In this document: in pieces, positions 36,923 to 43,949 of the stretch
Layout: each line of letters starts with the position of its first letter
Numbering within the stretch: position 1 is the first letter of the stretch
Assembly: GCA_002279355.1 (NCBI GenBank)
Contig: NCBV01000008.1
Coordinates: forward strand, 53,235 to 101,100
DNA length: 47,866 nt
Direction of reading: 5' to 3'
Origin: Acidiphilium sp. 37-60-79
Lineage (GTDB): Bacteria > Pseudomonadota > Alphaproteobacteria > Acetobacterales > Acetobacteraceae
Program-made: the position numbers and the translations under genes
Notes under the pieces: generated by a model
What the model was told of the DNA's origin: nothing
Seen by the model: only the letters and a program-made list of their open reading frames with translations
Databases searched by the model: none

Positions 36923-38716
36923 CGCATCCTCATCACTCTCGCCGCGCTCAGCCCGTCTGAGCGCCTGGGTGAGCGATACCAGCCGGTCCCAGTGCCCAGC
37001 ATCCTTGGTTTCACGCCACCGCCGATGTTGTTCGGCACATTGGTCGCGCAACCAATCGAGATTCATCAGGCCAAAAATACCGTACCAGCAGGCTTCGATG
37101 TCGGACCGGAGCGCATCAGGGCGCGACACGATGGATGGCAGCGGTTCAGCCTCGATACTCGACATTAAATCCCCGAAACCTGATGTGCGGAGATGGTCAA
37201 CCAAGGCCGCGCTGTCAAGGGCCTGCGCGCAATTCGCCCATTCGATCAGGGCCGCGCGCAGCGCTGTCAGCGATGCGGGCAGATCAAGGGCAACCAGCGC
37301 CTCATCGAAATTGGGGATGAGCGCTGGCTGTTTCAACAAAATTCCCAATAAAATGCGCGCTCGATGCTCCTGGGTTCGCTCAGCCGCAATCACCGGGCGC
37401 GGCAACCCCAGCGAGCGGCGTAGCGGCGGCGCCCCGCGCCGCTGATCGGCCAGGCGCGGCCGCGCCGGGCGAGCATTGAAAAACCGATCGAGCAAACTGC
37501 GTCGCATCTCACTCGCCAAAGCCCGATCGGTGATCTGCGCTGCCGCCGCCTCCAAGCGCCGCCGCAACGCCGCCCGCCCCTCCGGACCCGCTTGATCCGC
37601 CCCCTCCGCCAACAGCCCGAACAACGCCTCATCCAACGACCGCGCCCCCGCCAGCACCGCCGCGAACCCCGCAGCACCCGCCTTGCGCACCACGCTATCG
37701 GGGTCCTCATCATCGGGCAGCCGCGCCACCATCAAGGACCGATCCGCCGCCAAAGACGGCAAAGCCCGCTCAATCGCCCGCAACGTCGCCCGCCGCCCGG
37801 CTTTATCGCCATCCAAACATAGCACCGGCATCGGCGAGACCCGCCAAAGCTCCGCCCAATGCATCTCGGTCAGCGCAGTGCCGAGCGGCGCCACCGCCCC
37901 GCCGAATCCGGCCTCATGGAGCGCAATCACATCCATATAGCCTTCCACCACCACCAGCCGCGCGCCCTGGCGCAGCGCGGCACGCGCCCGATCCATCCCA
38001 TACAGAGTGCGCCCCTTGGAAAACACCGCGGTTTCCGGGCCGTTCAGATATTTCGGCTCCCCCGCGCCGAGCAACCGCCCGCCGAAACTCACCACCCGGC
38101 CCCGCCGGTCGCTGATCGGAAACATCAGCCGCCCGTAAAAATAATCAACCGGCCCGCGCTCGCCTTGCTTCATCAGCCCGGCCTCCACCAGCCCTTCGGC
38201 GCTCACGCCCTCGCGCGCCAACGACGCCAGCAACGCCCCGCGCCCCTCACCGGACCAGCCCAGCCCAAACCGCTCAATCGCCGCGTGCTCCAAGCCCCGC
38301 TTGGCCAAATAGGCCCGCGCCGCCGCGCCTTCCGGCTGCAGCAACCGCCGCTGATAGTCTGCCGCCGCCCGCGCCAGCACCTCCACCACCCCGGCTTCGC
38401 GTGAGGCCAGCTCCGCCGCGCGCGGGTCGGCCTTGGGCATCTCCATCCCGGCCTCGCCAGCCAGGCGCTCCACCGCCTCGGTGAAACTCGCCCCCTCACT
38501 CTGCATCACGAAACTAATCGCATCGCCATGCGCGCCGCAGCCAAAACAATGGAAATGATCGTCATACACATAAAAAGATGGCGTCTTTTCATTGTGAAAC
38601 GGGCAACACCCCTTCTGCTCGCGCCCCGATCGGGTCAGGCGCACCCGCTTGCCAATCAGGCCCGCAATCGGCGTGCGGGTGCGCAACTCATCCAGAAAAT
38701 TCGCGGGAAAATTCAT
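36914..38716 (-). CDS. dnaG: DNA primase
   Basis: DnaG synthesises RNA primers for replication. The 600-residue protein has the CHC2 zinc finger (Cys38, His41, Cys57, Cys60), the primase core and the Toprim motif (LVVVEGYMDVIALHEAG, then LCLDGDKAGRRA). A helical C-terminal DnaB-binding region follows. The start overlaps the yqeY stop by four bases. Confidence 0.97.
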   Translation of the reverse strand: MNFPANFLDELRTRTPIAGLIGKRVRLTRSGREQKGCCPFHNEKTPSFYVYDDHFHCFGCGAHGDAISFVMQSEGASFTEAVERLAGEAGMEMPKADPRAAELASREAGVVEVLARAAADYQRRLLQPEGAAARAYLAKRGLEHAAIERFGLGWSGEGRGALLASLAREGVSAEGLVEAGLMKQGERGPVDYFYGRLMFPISDRRGRVVSFGGRLLGAGEPKYLNGPETAVFSKGRTLYGMDRARAALRQGARLVVVEGYMDVIALHEAGFGGAVAPLGTALTEMHWAELWRVSPMPVLCLDGDKAGRRATLRAIERALPSLAADRSLMVARLPDDEDPDSVVRKAGAAGFAAVLAGARSLDEALFGLLAEGADQAGPEGRAALRRRLEAAAAQITDRALASEMRRSLLDRFFNARPARPRLADQRRGAPPLRRSLGLPRPVIAAERTQEHRARILLGILLKQPALIPNFDEALVALDLPASLTALRAALIEWANCAQALDSAALVDHLRTSGFGDLMSSIEAEPLPSIVSRPDALRSDIEACWYGIFGLMNLDWLRDQCAEQHRRWRETKDAGHWDRLVSLTQALRRAERGESDEDAPD

Positions 38717-39180
38717 TGAGCGGCTAATTTTTCTTTCACCAGCGCCGAAGTGACACCCATATCCAAATCAGTCCCATGCGCCTGCTTCAGCGCGGCGATC
38801 ACCTTACCCATGTCTTTCGCGCCGAGCGCTCCGGTCGCGGCAATCGCCTGATCCACCGCCGCCGCCAACGCCGCCCCCTCCAGCGTTTGCGGCAAAAACG
38901 CCTCGATAATCACAATTTCCGCCGCCTCCTTATCCGCCAATTCCGCCCGATTAACCGCCCGATATTGCGCCTCAGACTCCCGGCGCGACTTCACCATGCC
39001 ACGCAGCATCGCAATAATCTCAGCATCCGGAATTTCCGTGACGCCCTTGGGTCGTGCGGCAATGTCAAAATCCTTCAACCGCGCCGTCATCATCCGCAGC
39101 GTCGAAACCCGCAGCGCATCCCCCGCCCGCATCGCCGCCTTCAAATTATCCGTCATCTGCGTCCGTAACGCTGAACTCAT
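38713..39180 (-). CDS. GatB/YqeY domain protein
   Basis: The 155-residue protein starts SALRTQMTDNLKAAMRAGDALRVSTLRMM and ends GVTSALVKEKLAAQ, matching the YqeY family, which is related to the tail domain of the GatB amidotransferase. Function is unclear. In many bacteria it precedes dnaG and rpoD in the macromolecular-synthesis operon, as here. Its promoter region shares 115 bases with the divergent carA gene. Confidence 0.9.
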   Translation of the reverse strand: MSSALRTQMTDNLKAAMRAGDALRVSTLRMMTARLKDFDIAARPKGVTEIPDAEIIAMLRGMVKSRRESEAQYRAVNRAELADKEAAEIVIIEAFLPQTLEGAALAAAVDQAIAATGALGAKDMGKVIAALKQAHGTDLDMGVTSALVKEKLAAQ

Positions 39181-39225: not shown

Positions 39226-39241
39226 CCGGAAAAAATTTCCG
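39226..39241. promoter_or_regulatory. Operator-like imperfect palindrome 1 upstream of carA
   Basis: CCGGAAAAAATTTCCG (extended by one G gives a 7-bp perfect inverted repeat CCGGAAA/TTTCCGG). It differs from copy 2 at only three central positions. It sits 55 bases before the carA ATG and may overlap a promoter for carA or yqeY. Confidence 0.6.
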
Positions 39242-39264
39242 GCACACCACTCTCCATATTGAAT

Positions 39265-39280
39265 CCGGATTTAATTTCCG
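39265..39280. promoter_or_regulatory. Operator-like imperfect palindrome 2 upstream of carA
   Basis: CCGGATTTAATTTCCG, 13 of 16 bases identical to copy 1, with centre-to-centre spacing of 39 bp. It ends 15 bases before the carA ATG. A degenerate third version may lie at 39215-39229. Binding by the CarA N-terminal helix-turn-helix is inferred, not shown. Confidence 0.6.
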
Positions 39281-39295
39281 ATATGCACATTGATC

Positions 39296-40651
39296 ATGCC
39301 CCTGTCCATAGAATCCCTGATAGATCGTCTCGGCGGCCCGGACGCTGCCGCCAAACTCACCGCCGTCTCGACCGAGGCGGTGCGCAAATGGCGCAGCACC
39401 GGCGCTATCCCCTCGCGCCACTGGCCGATTGTGCTCGCCGCGACCGGCTTGAGCCTCGATGATCTGCCCGGCGGGGTCAATCATGACGCGCCAACCCACA
39501 AGCCAGACCGCGCCACCGCCGCCCTGGTGCTGGGCGATGGCCGGATATACTGGGGCATCGGCTTTGGCGCGTATAGCCGCCCCGATCACGAGGCCGCCGA
39601 ATTATGCTTCTCCACCGGCATGGCCGGCTATCAAGAAACCCTGACCGATCCCTCCTTCGCCGGCCAAATCATCACCTTCACCTTCCCCCATATCGGCAAT
39701 GTAGGCAGCAACGCCGAGGATATCGAGGCCAGCCAAAGCTTCGCCCTGGGCTTGGTGCTCAACCGGCCGATCAGCAAACCCTCCAATTGGCGCTCCACAG
39801 CACCGCTCGAAGATTGGTGCGCCCGCATGGGCCTACCCGGCATCCACAGCGTCGATACCCGCGCCCTCACCATCTCGATCCGCGAAGACGGCGCGCCCAA
39901 CGCGCTGCTCGCCTACCCGCAAGACCAAAAATTCGACATCCCCGCCCTGGTCGCCCAAGCCCGCGACTGGCCCGGCCTCACCGGCATGGATCTCGCGCGG
40001 GCCGTGTCCTGCACCCAGCCCTATGAATGGACCGAAACGCTCTGGGACCGCGCCACCGGCTTTGGCCACAAGACCGCCCCAACCTATACCGTCGTCGCGG
40101 TCGATTACGGCGCCAAACGCAATATTTTCCGCAATCTCGCCAGTGCGGGCTGCCGGGTGATCGTGGTCCCCGCGACAAGCACCGCCGAAGATATTCTGCG
40201 CCACCAACCCGATGGCGTCTTTCTCTCCAACGGCCCCGGTGACCCCGCCGCCACCGCCCACTATGCGGTGCCGACCATTCGCCGTGTGCTCGAGACCGGC
40301 CTACCGCTCTTTGGCATCTGCCTGGGCCACCAACTCCTCGCCACCGCCCTTGGCGGCAAAACCTATAAACTCGCCCGTGGCCATCGCGGCGCCAACCAGC
40401 CGGTGCAAGACCTCGCCACCGGCCGGGTCGAAATCACCAGCCAAAATCACGGTTTCGCCGTCGATGAAGCCTCGCTCCCCCACGGCGTCACCATCACCCA
40501 TCGCAGCCTGTTCGATGGCTCCAATGAAGGCATCGCCTGCCCCGCGCAAAACTGCTTTTCGGTGCAATACCACCCTGAAGCCAGCCCCGGCCCGTCGGAC
40601 GCCAATCACCTCTTCACCCGCTTCACCGCCATGATGCGCGCGAAACGCTAA
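39296..40651 (+). CDS. carA: Carbamoyl-phosphate synthase small subunit with N-terminal helix-turn-helix domain
   Basis: CarA hydrolyses glutamine and passes ammonia to CarB for arginine and pyrimidine synthesis. Residues 70-451 form a normal Car[21 protein letters not shown], the amidotransferase nucleophile Cys342 in [10 protein letters not shown], and His/Glu in [11 protein letters not shown]. The first 58 or so residues are extra: [17 protein letters not shown], then [19 protein letters not shown], the layout of a Cro/YdaS-like helix-turn-helix. No in-frame ATG or good start exists at the normal CarA beginning, supporting the fusion. The ATG at 39296 lacks a clear ribosome site. I recall an NCBI domain called carph-isopro for such a fusion; unverified. 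Confidence 0.92.
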
Positions 40652-40691: not shown

Positions 40692-43600
40692 ATGCCCAAG
40701 CGCACCGACCTCAAATCCATCCTGATCATCGGCGCTGGCCCCATCGTCATCGGCCAGGCTTGCGAGTTCGATTATTCCGGCGCCCAGGCCTGCAAGGCCC
40801 TGCGCGAGGAGGGCTATCGGGTCATTCTGGTCAATTCCAACCCCGCCACCATCATGACCGACCCGGAATTGGCCGACGCCACCTATATCGAGCCGATCAC
40901 CCCCGAGATGGTGGAAAAAATCATCATCAAGGAGCGGCCCGACGCGCTCTTGCCCACCATGGGCGGACAAACCGCGCTCAACACCGCCATGACCCTGGCC
41001 AAATCGGGCATTTTGGCCAAGCACGGCGTCGAATTGATCGGCGCCAAAGCCGACGTGATCGATCGCGCTGAGGACCGCCTCAAATTCCGCGACGCCATGG
41101 CCGAAATCGGCATCGAGAGCCCGAAAAGCCGCATCGCCCACTCGCTCGATGATGCGAAGGCCGCCCTCGAAATCGTCGGCCTGCCCGCCGTCATCCGCCC
41201 CTCTTTCACCCTCGGCGGAACCGGCGGCGGCATCGCCTATAACCGCACCGAGTTTCTCGACATCGTCTCCGGCGGGCTCGACGCCTCGCCCACCACCGAA
41301 GTGCTGATCGAAGAGAGCGTTCTCGGCTGGAAAGAATTCGAAATGGAAGTCGTGCGCGACAGCGCCGATAATTGCATCATCATTTGCTCAATCGAGAATA
41401 TCGACCCGATGGGCGTGCATACCGGCGATTCCGTCACCGTCGCCCCCGCCCTCACCCTCACCGACCGCGAACTCCAAATCATGCGCGATGCCTCAATCGC
41501 CTGCCTGCGCAAAATCGGCGTCGATACCGGCGGCTCCAACGTCCAATTCGGCATCAACCCCGCCGACGGCCGTATGGTGGTGATCGAAATGAACCCGCGC
41601 GTCTCGCGTTCATCGGCCTTGGCCTCCAAAGCCACCGGCTTTCCCATCGCCAAAATCGCGGCCAAACTCGCGGTCGGCTACACGCTCGATGAATTGCGCA
41701 ACGACATCACCAAAGTCACCCCCGCGAGTTTCGAGCCGACCATCGATTACGTGGTGGTCAAAATCCCCCGCTTCACCTTCGAAAAATTCCCCGGCACCCC
41801 GGCCGTGCTCACCACCGCGATGAAATCGGTCGGCGAAGCCATGGCGATTGGCCGCAGCTTCCCCGAAGCCTTGCAAAAAGCCCTGCGCAGCCTGGAGACC
41901 GGCTATGCCGGGCTCGACCCGATCGAGCCACCCGGCGATGGCACCCATGATGCCTATCGCGCCGCCCTCTCCACCCCGCGCCCTGATCGCTTGCTGATCG
42001 CCGCCGCCGCGCTGCGCGCGGGTCTCAGCGTCGCCGATATCCACAATGCCTGCAAATTCGACCCCTGGTTCATCGACCAGCTCGCCTTGATCATCGATGC
42101 CGAACGCAGCGTCACCGCGCACGGCCTGCCCGATGACGCTGATGGCTGGCGTGCCCTCAAAGCCCTCGGCCTGTCCGATAAGCGGCTCAGCACCCTGTCG
42201 GGCCTCGCCGAACCCGACATCGCCGCCACCCGCCAACGCCTCGGCGTAATCCCCGCCTATCGCCGGATCGACAGCACCGCCGGCGAATTCGCCTCCGCAA
42301 CCGCCTATCTCTACGCGACATATGAGGGCGGCTTCGGCACCCCGCATTGCGAAGCCGAACCCAGTGCGCGCAACAAAATCGTGATCCTCGGCGGCGGCCC
42401 CAACCGGATCGGCCAGGGCATCGAGTTCGATTATTGCTGCGTTCACGCCGCCTACGCCCTGCGCGACGCCGGCTTTGAAACCATCATGGTCAATTGCAAT
42501 CCCGAAACCGTCTCCACCGATTACGACACCTCCGACCGGCTCTATTTCGAACCCCTTTTCGCCGAAGACGTGCTGGCCCTGATCAAGCGCGAACAAGCGA
42601 GCGGCCATCTGCTCGGCTGCATTGTGCAATATGGCGGACAAACCCCGCTAAAACTCAGCCAATCCCTCGCCGCCGCCGGTATCCCCATCCTCGGCACCTC
42701 CGCCGATGCCATCGATATCGCCGAAGACCGCGAACGCTTCCAAACCCTGCTGCACCAGCTCGGCCTGCGCCAACCCGAAAACGGCATCGCCCGCTCCGCC
42801 GACGAGGCCGAAGCCATCGTCGCGCGCATCGGCTTCCCGGTGGTCATCCGCCCCAGCTACGTGCTCGGCGGCCGCGCCATGGAAATCGTCTACGACCTCG
42901 CCAATCTGCGCCGCTATATGCGCGAAGCCGTGGTCGTCTCAGGCACCAACCCGGTGCTGATCGACCGCTATTTGAACGACGCCATCGAGGTCGACGTCGA
43001 TTGCATCGCCGATGGCGAAACCGTCTATGTCGCGGGCGTGATGGAACATATCGAAGAAGCCGGCATTCACTCCGGCGATAGCGCCTGCTCGCTGCCGCCC
43101 TACTCGCTCTCCCCCGCCATCATCGATGAATTACGCGCCCAAACCGAAGCCATGGCCAAAGCCCTCAACGTGGTCGGGCTGATGAATGTCCAATTCGCCA
43201 TCCAGCGCGATCAAGCGGGCGGTGACAATGTCTATGTGCTCGAAGTCAATCCGCGCGCCTCACGCACCGTCCCCTTCGTCGCCAAAGCCACTGGCATCCC
43301 GGTCGCCAAAATCGGTGCGCGCGTCATGGCCGGCGAAAAACTCGCCAGCTTCAATCTCGACCCCAACGTCATGCGCAGCCATGTCGCGGTCAAAGAAGCG
43401 GTGTTCCCCTTCGCCCGCTTCTCTGGCGTTGATGTCTTGCTCGGCCCCGAAATGAAATCCACCGGCGAAGTCATGGGCCTCGATGCCAGCTTTGCCCGCG
43501 CCTTCGCCAAAGCCCAGCTCGGCGCCGGGGTAAAACTGCCGCAAACCGGCACGGTGTTTCTCTCCGTGCGCGATGCCGATAAATCCGCCATCGTCCCGAT

Positions 43601-43949
43601 CGCCCGCCGCTTCACCGAACTCGGCTTTTCGCTCCGCGCCACCCGCGGCACCGCCGCCCACCTCGCCAGTGCGGGCATCACCGCCGAAGCGGTGAACAAA
43701 GTGCTCGAAGGCCGCCCCCATTGCGTCGATGCCATTCGCTCGGGCGAGATCGACCTCGTGATCAACACCGCCTCCGGCGCGCAAACCGTCGCCGACAGCT
43801 TCGATATCCGCCGCTCCGCCCTCACCCACGGCGTTCCCCACTTCACCACCATCGCCGGTGCGCGCGCCGCCTCCCACGCCATTTCCGCCCTCGCGGCGGG
43901 CAACCTTGATGTTGCGCCACTTCAGTCGTATTTTCGTTCCTCGTTCTGA
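40692..43949 (+). CDS. carB: Carbamoyl-phosphate synthase large subunit
   Basis: CarB makes carbamoyl phosphate from ammonia, bicarbonate and two ATP. The 1085-residue protein has two homologous ATP-grasp halves ([23 protein letters not shown] at the start, [23 protein letters not shown] in the second), and a C-terminal MGS-like allosteric domain ([19 protein letters not shown]). Length is typical. It follows carA by 40 bases. Confidence 0.98.

Follow-up and report, generated by a model that had tools for sequence, protein, structure and literature searches.

In the window (the whole stretch of 47,866 nucleotides that we analysed), two palindromic boxes, which we call O1 and O2, lie between yqeY and the divergently transcribed carA (Table 1). 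O2 is imperfect, with 4 of its 6 outer pairs symmetric, and O1 is perfect. Their left ends are 39 bp apart, and they are the only exact matches to CCGGANNNAATTTCCG in the window. An initial annotation, made from the sequence alone, had placed two 16-bp sites with a common pattern at 39226 and 39265, 39 bp apart, between the divergent yqeY and carA. The coordinates, the common pattern (both sites fit CCGGANNNAATTTCCG exactly), the spacing, and the position between the two genes all held. The symmetric units that we found are 17 bp (39226-39242 and 39265-39281), not 16 bp. The listed open reading frame (ORF) for carA begins at a TTG at 39290, not at the ATG at 39296.

Table 1. Features of the yqeY-carAB region (window coordinates).
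Feature	Position	Strand	Comment
yqeY, divergent neighbour of carA	38713..39180	-	Pfam YqeY
Putative distal operator O1	39226..39242	.	Perfect 17-bp palindrome CCGGAAAAAATTTCCGG
Inferred -35 of carA promoter, TTGAAT	39259..39264	+	From sequence and conservation
Putative proximal operator O2	39265..39281	.	CCGGATTTAATTTCCGA; occupies the gap from the inferred -35 to the inferred -10
Inferred -10 of carA promoter, TATGCA	39282..39287	+	From sequence and conservation; 8 nt before the ATG
carA, fused HTH-CarA	39296..40651	+	451 amino acids from the ATG at 39296
Cro-like HTH domain, NF046037 carph-isopro	39308..39466	+	Recognition helix is residues 26-35, counted from the ATG
carB, CPSase large subunit	40692..43949	+	CPSase_L_D1, D2, D3, MGS; presumed second gene of the operon

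The protein encoded by carA matches TIGR01368 (CarA, the glutamine-hydrolysing CPSase small subunit) at 425 bits, above the cut-off of 307.35, and its N-terminus is an HTH domain of about 55 residues. This domain (residues 7-59 when counted from the TTG) scores 64.3 bits against NF046037 (carph-isopro), for which the curated cut-off is 38. Pfam's P22_Cro (PF14549) reaches only 19.1 bits, under its gathering cut-off of 30.2, and the likeness to P22_Cro resides in the fold. A profile built from 12 of these domains matches the Cro chains 5w8y, 3bd1, 2hin, and 1rzs from PDB, with E values from 0.0015 to 0.09. Given the AF2 model of the domain (pLDDT 83.6), Foldseek placed phage Cro proteins and the 434 repressor as the best matches, with a probability of 1.00; the E values of these best PDB matches were 0.025 and up, with none under 0.001. 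In the model of full-length CarA (pLDDT 88.2), the HTH-CarA junction at about residues 51-70 is predicted with less certainty. These computations show that the N-terminal domain of CarA is a Cro-like HTH, as to domain and fold class; that it binds DNA is an inference. The enzyme part appears intact across the family, as the glutaminase motifs are retained in 114 of 117 long CarA sequences. We did not find a second copy of the carph-isopro domain above the cut-off in the window's genome.

The fusion is not confined to the window. Across the order, 296 of 299 sampled genomes have a match to the profile of the CarA-type HTH. (For these 296, fusion to CarA was not checked genome by genome.) The exceptions are G041, G470, and G680, and in G680 the end of a contig cuts carA. 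In an earlier sample of 60 genomes of the family, including the window's, 56 had the fusion. The other four were G041, which lacks the HTH; G038, in which the gene is cut; and G031 and G051, in which we found no carA. Genera represented among the loci from named genomes (80 kept of 354) include Acidiphilium, Acetobacter, Komagataeibacter, Novacetimonas, Rhodopila, Acidocella, Elioraea, and Asaia, and of the loci with a genus name, those from Acidiphilium are the closest to the window's. We saw no CarA fusion outside the family among the part of the profile matches that we examined.

The boxes exceed chance as a pair, in their placement, and in their conservation, not as a loose single motif. 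With up to 3 mismatches allowed, the window contains 19 sites versus 23.5 expected. Similarly, a looser pattern gave 16 rows genome-wide versus 11 for the reversed-pattern control, which is not informative. (In the genome-wide rows, one palindrome is counted on both strands.) The stricter pattern CGGANNNAATTTCCG has 4 matches in the 3.07-Mb genome versus 0 for the control, and two of these are O1 and O2. The remaining two (L003 and L004) are in reading frames of very similar DNA that is apparently from mobile elements. Within the window, a site with one mismatch (2243-2258) lies inside a short frame that, by eye, resembles ribosomal protein L33.

Upstream of fused carA genes, at least one box was present within 250 bp in all 59 of the loci that we examined, and 48 of the 59 had two boxes (the other 11 had only one at our threshold). 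In Markov shuffles, at least one box appeared in 194 of 2,950 and two boxes in 8 of 2,950. As another control, internal stretches of carA contained at least one box in 6 of 59 cases. The 59 loci are the window, 55 relatives, and three loci from a further search. They include L047, even though a contig end kept us from matching its CarA part; we left out L077, which is the same locus as L027, and all other loci for which we had no CarA match were left out as well. The comparison with the nearest relative (L024) shows how local the conservation is: both boxes are identical (17/17 positions each), versus 13 of the 22 bp between the boxes and 3 of the 15 bp upstream of O1.

We then use a larger set of 120 distinct loci, from which 18 of 138 were removed because their upstream DNA was duplicated. 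(L201 could not be parsed and was dropped. Elsewhere in the analysis, contig ends led us to leave out L149, L168, and L285.) Of 111 pairs of boxes, 75 were spaced by 37-40 bp, 19 by 44 bp, and 6 by 49-50 bp. Because the 44-bp spacing is common, we rejected strict helical phasing of O1 and O2.

The proximal box has a consistent relationship to the start of carA. In 73 of the 120 loci, the start codon is less than 25 nt after the box. In this short-leader class, the positions 6-4 nt before the box are T, T, and G in 94%, 93%, and 91% of loci, and the box is followed by T (68%) and A (94%), which would be the first two positions of the -10 element. From sequence and conservation, and without any measurement, we infer that the proximal box forms the 17-bp spacer in a sigma70-like promoter, which in the window reads TTGAAT-[box]-TATGCA. 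The start codon is 12-15 nt after the box in 63 of the 73 short-leader loci. This is about where transcription would be expected to start, so the carA mRNA may be leaderless. For the window, with the -10 only 8 nt before the ATG, a leaderless or nearly leaderless mRNA is a possibility that we infer from the sequence.

The spacer register (TTG before the box and A after it) fits 67 of the 120 loci. Of the 52 loci that lack the TTG, 30 carry a TA-type hexamer downstream of the box, at a distance of 16-18 nt. In these 30 loci, many of which are from Acetobacter or Komagataeibacter, the end of the box could perhaps serve as the -35 element. Neither register fits the other 22 of the 120 loci.

Of the unfused carA genes, 20 had readable DNA upstream, and none of these had boxes. 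Because the rate in shuffled DNA is low, few boxes would be expected in 20 genes anyway, so this shows a lack of enrichment and not a loss. The absence matters most for L163 (from G041) and L284 (from G470), which are the only readable HTH-less genes from the same family. In both, CarA starts directly at the enzyme part and there are no boxes.

The boxes are also nearly specific to carA. For instance, we found 23 sites that match TGGGAAN5TTCCCA in 36 genomes of the family, and 21 of these are directly before carA. (The other two are on G012:C289 and G027:C45.) The 23 sites were spread over 19 genomes. Of the 36, 13 belong to the same genus as the window, in which the boxes carry another base. 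Outside the family, 3 of 24 genomes had one such site each. With only 2 of the 23 sites in the family away from carA, a wider regulon is not supported.

That other base, the second of the operator, varies: the window's relatives have C, and most other loci have G. The residues of CarA that are most associated with it are 25, 34, and 36 (S25, S34, and G36 in the window), which lie at the ends of the recognition helix (residues 26-35, numbered from the ATG). A simple rule, that Ser or Thr at 25 together with Gly at 36 goes with CGGA boxes and anything else with GGGA boxes, was right for 113 of 117 unambiguous loci, with 4 exceptions. Three mixed loci were excluded from this test, and the rule was chosen using the same data that score it. 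Within a locus, the second base was the same in O1 and O2 in 80 of 111 pairs, different in 5, and ambiguous in 26. In a tree of the body of CarA (without L023 and L047, which are too short), there were about 4 switches of the operator base, 2 of them on well-supported branches. Paired comparisons on the tree showed the rule's direction or no difference, and the switches were too few for a sign test or a claim of significance. Our computations show that the operator base co-varies with residues of the HTH, with few independent switches and a rule that was fitted to the same data.

We propose that CarA (or CarAB) is an autorepressor of carAB with a single target. We consider this very likely; there are no binding or expression data. 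Self-regulation of carAB by way of the HTH had been suggested by the initial annotation, which would have been refuted if relatives that keep the fusion did not conserve the palindromes. That check was run, and the hypothesis passed it, with boxes at 59 of 59 loci. Conservation and covariation support the suggestion, and binding itself is inferred. In our model, the N-terminal Cro-type HTH would bind the palindromes, with two HTH domains per palindrome. The location of O2 in the spacer of a sigma70-like promoter suggests repression: if O2 is occupied between the -35 and the -10, RNA polymerase would be blocked. O1, which is 39 bp upstream, most likely would strengthen repression by cooperative binding of the oligomeric enzyme; both the repression and the cooperativity are inferences. 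The four CarA chains of a tetramer would supply enough HTH domains to match the four half-sites one to one, which is again an inference. The result would be negative autoregulation, with higher levels of CarA(B) leading to less transcription of carAB.

Ligands might also influence this circuit. In E. coli, CPSase moves among alpha-beta, (alpha-beta)2, and (alpha-beta)4 forms in response to effectors (PMC6245113). Such effector-driven shifts in oligomeric state could gate the pairing of HTH domains. This gating of carAB is inferred, and the sign of the effect is open. A simple model in which CarA senses its own oligomeric state has the wrong sign for feedback by UMP, as UMP would relieve repression.

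We considered three other explanations. The boxes might serve a separate, unlinked repressor, such as a pyrimidine or arginine regulator, while the HTH of CarA does something else. There is precedent for separate factors, as the carAB of E. coli is controlled by ArgR, PurR, RutR, and PepA (PMC6245113). But the two readable HTH-less genes from the same family lack boxes, the sites are nearly confined to carA, the operator base tracks HTH residues of CarA itself, and the window's genome has no second copy of the domain above the cut-off. We think that a separate repressor is very unlikely. It is also very unlikely that CarA, once bound to the boxes, activates carAB. O1 does lie on the upstream side of the promoter, a possible place for an activator, but O2 is in the promoter spacer in 67 of the 120 loci, which is a classic position for a repressor.

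The boxes might instead mainly control the divergent yqeY-dnaG-rpoD, or transcription in both directions, as the initial annotation had raised as an alternative. The arrangement is common: yqeY was found divergently upstream in 107 of the 120 fused loci. But the boxes persist in the 13 loci where we did not find yqeY upstream (two boxes in 9 and one box in 4), O2 lies in the promoter of carA, and L163 lacks boxes even though yqeY, by eye, still seems to be its neighbour. Control of yqeY is unlikely, if less so than the other two alternatives, and we judge it to be less likely than autorepression of carAB by CarA.

Enzymes that double as regulators are known. PutA and NadR are bifunctional, each being an enzyme and a transcriptional regulator of its own pathway, and involve other proteins and other operators. 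The group II biotin protein ligase BirA is an enzyme known to regulate genes, as we propose for CarA. BirA is a different enzyme and regulates biotin genes, whereas the only conserved target that we saw for CarA is its own operon. Phage Cro proteins (such as 1rzs, 3bd1, and 2hin) share their fold with the HTH of CarA, and they act on short palindromic operators. Unlike them, the HTH of CarA is a domain of a housekeeping enzyme.

The closest comparison is with carAB itself. This operon feeds the synthesis of arginine and pyrimidines, and its control, by many separate factors, is a textbook example. In E. coli, the same operon is likewise controlled at its promoters with the involvement of trigger enzymes: PepA binds the P1 region of carAB, and PyrH is proposed to act via protein contacts (PMC6245113). 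There, separate proteins act, and the relevant passages of PMC6245113 do not describe an HTH on CarA. The fused CarA has two features of a trigger enzyme: a DNA-binding-type domain and an enzyme in one chain, and conserved operator-like sites at its own promoter. As an annotation, the fusion is not new, because NCBI already models the domain. We searched the open-access literature, which excludes most subscription journals, by title and the start of the abstract, and found no paper about the HTH-CarA fusion. The operators, the nearly exclusive target, and the covariation appear to be new.

The same or a similar N-terminal domain, in part below the NF046037 cut-off, occurs on other proteins of Alphaproteobacteria. 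Its partners include HisZ-like proteins (tRNA-synt_His in Pfam), ArgB-like amino-acid kinases, NAD(P)H-hydrate dehydratase, a mitofilin-type protein, and, more weakly, the E1 component of a dehydrogenase. The initial annotation had proposed looking for boxes before other genes with this HTH. One HisZ family and ArgB pass this check, with box sequences that differ from those of carA. A strict palindrome search found nothing before two further HisZ fusions (L131 and L144). In family f49, 15 of the 18 genomes searched had an HTH-HisZ match. All 15 loci (L250-L264) have a pair of TTCATN5ATGAA boxes. In each locus, the left ends of the two boxes are exactly 39 bp apart, and the second box starts 20-23 nt before the ATG. 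These 15 loci are close relatives, and L256-L258 also have an overlapping weaker match. Three of the four ArgB fusions (L265-L267) are preceded by two TTACTN5AGTAA-like boxes, at positions -58 and -24, the second of which follows TTGAC(A/T); upstream of the fourth fusion (L268) is a single box of another sequence, TTGCGTAATACGTAA. The HisZ and ArgB boxes have no sequence in common with the carA operators, as would follow if each fused domain recognised boxes of its own.

A search for perfect palindromes with 6-bp arms gave upstream matches for L128, L130, and L123, and an AT-rich match for L132; there were none for L131, L144, L141, L142, or L143. L141 and L142 (the same as L265 and L266) show boxes only with the pattern that was derived from themselves. 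Because several fusions have no palindrome in the strict search, we rejected the idea that twin boxes precede every fused enzyme.

Some of the other fusions are described here as separate observations. In L123, near 1490, an HTH is joined to NAD(P)H-hydrate dehydratase (in Pfam), and the palindrome GTACGTATTTTACGTAC is directly upstream. L052 (782-1657, - strand) is a gene from the window's own family that encodes an N-terminal domain of this type followed by a stretch with a weak, below-cut-off match to TetR_N; by eye, there are TTTACATGTAAA-like palindromes upstream. In L132, a weaker domain, below the NF046037 cut-off, precedes the dehydrogenase E1 component. NF046037 also matches the front of long mitofilin-domain proteins in L126 and others of L101-L127 (the mitofilin match in Pfam was tested in L126 alone). 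The mitofilin fusions put a domain of the DNA-binding type onto what is likely a membrane protein.

A bolder reading, which we can neither favour nor dismiss, is that the Cro-type HTH is a movable cartridge that has been added repeatedly to metabolic enzymes in Alphaproteobacteria: to CarA in Acetobacteraceae, to HisZ and ArgB in other families, and perhaps to NnrD and others. Each fusion would have a private pair of operators, often 39 bp apart, on its own promoter, which would co-evolve with the recognition helix, and the allosteric or assembly state of the enzyme may gate repression. If this is true, then the enzyme is the sensor, the effector, and the target in one chain.

For CarA, an enzyme apparently carries its own repressor, with a nearly exclusive target, in almost all of the members that we sampled from a large family. 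With this apparent repressor so common in the family, acetic-acid bacteria (Acetobacter or Komagataeibacter, for example) would be suitable for testing the circuit. Should the cases of HisZ and ArgB hold up, such fusions would be a general route to feedback on a single target.
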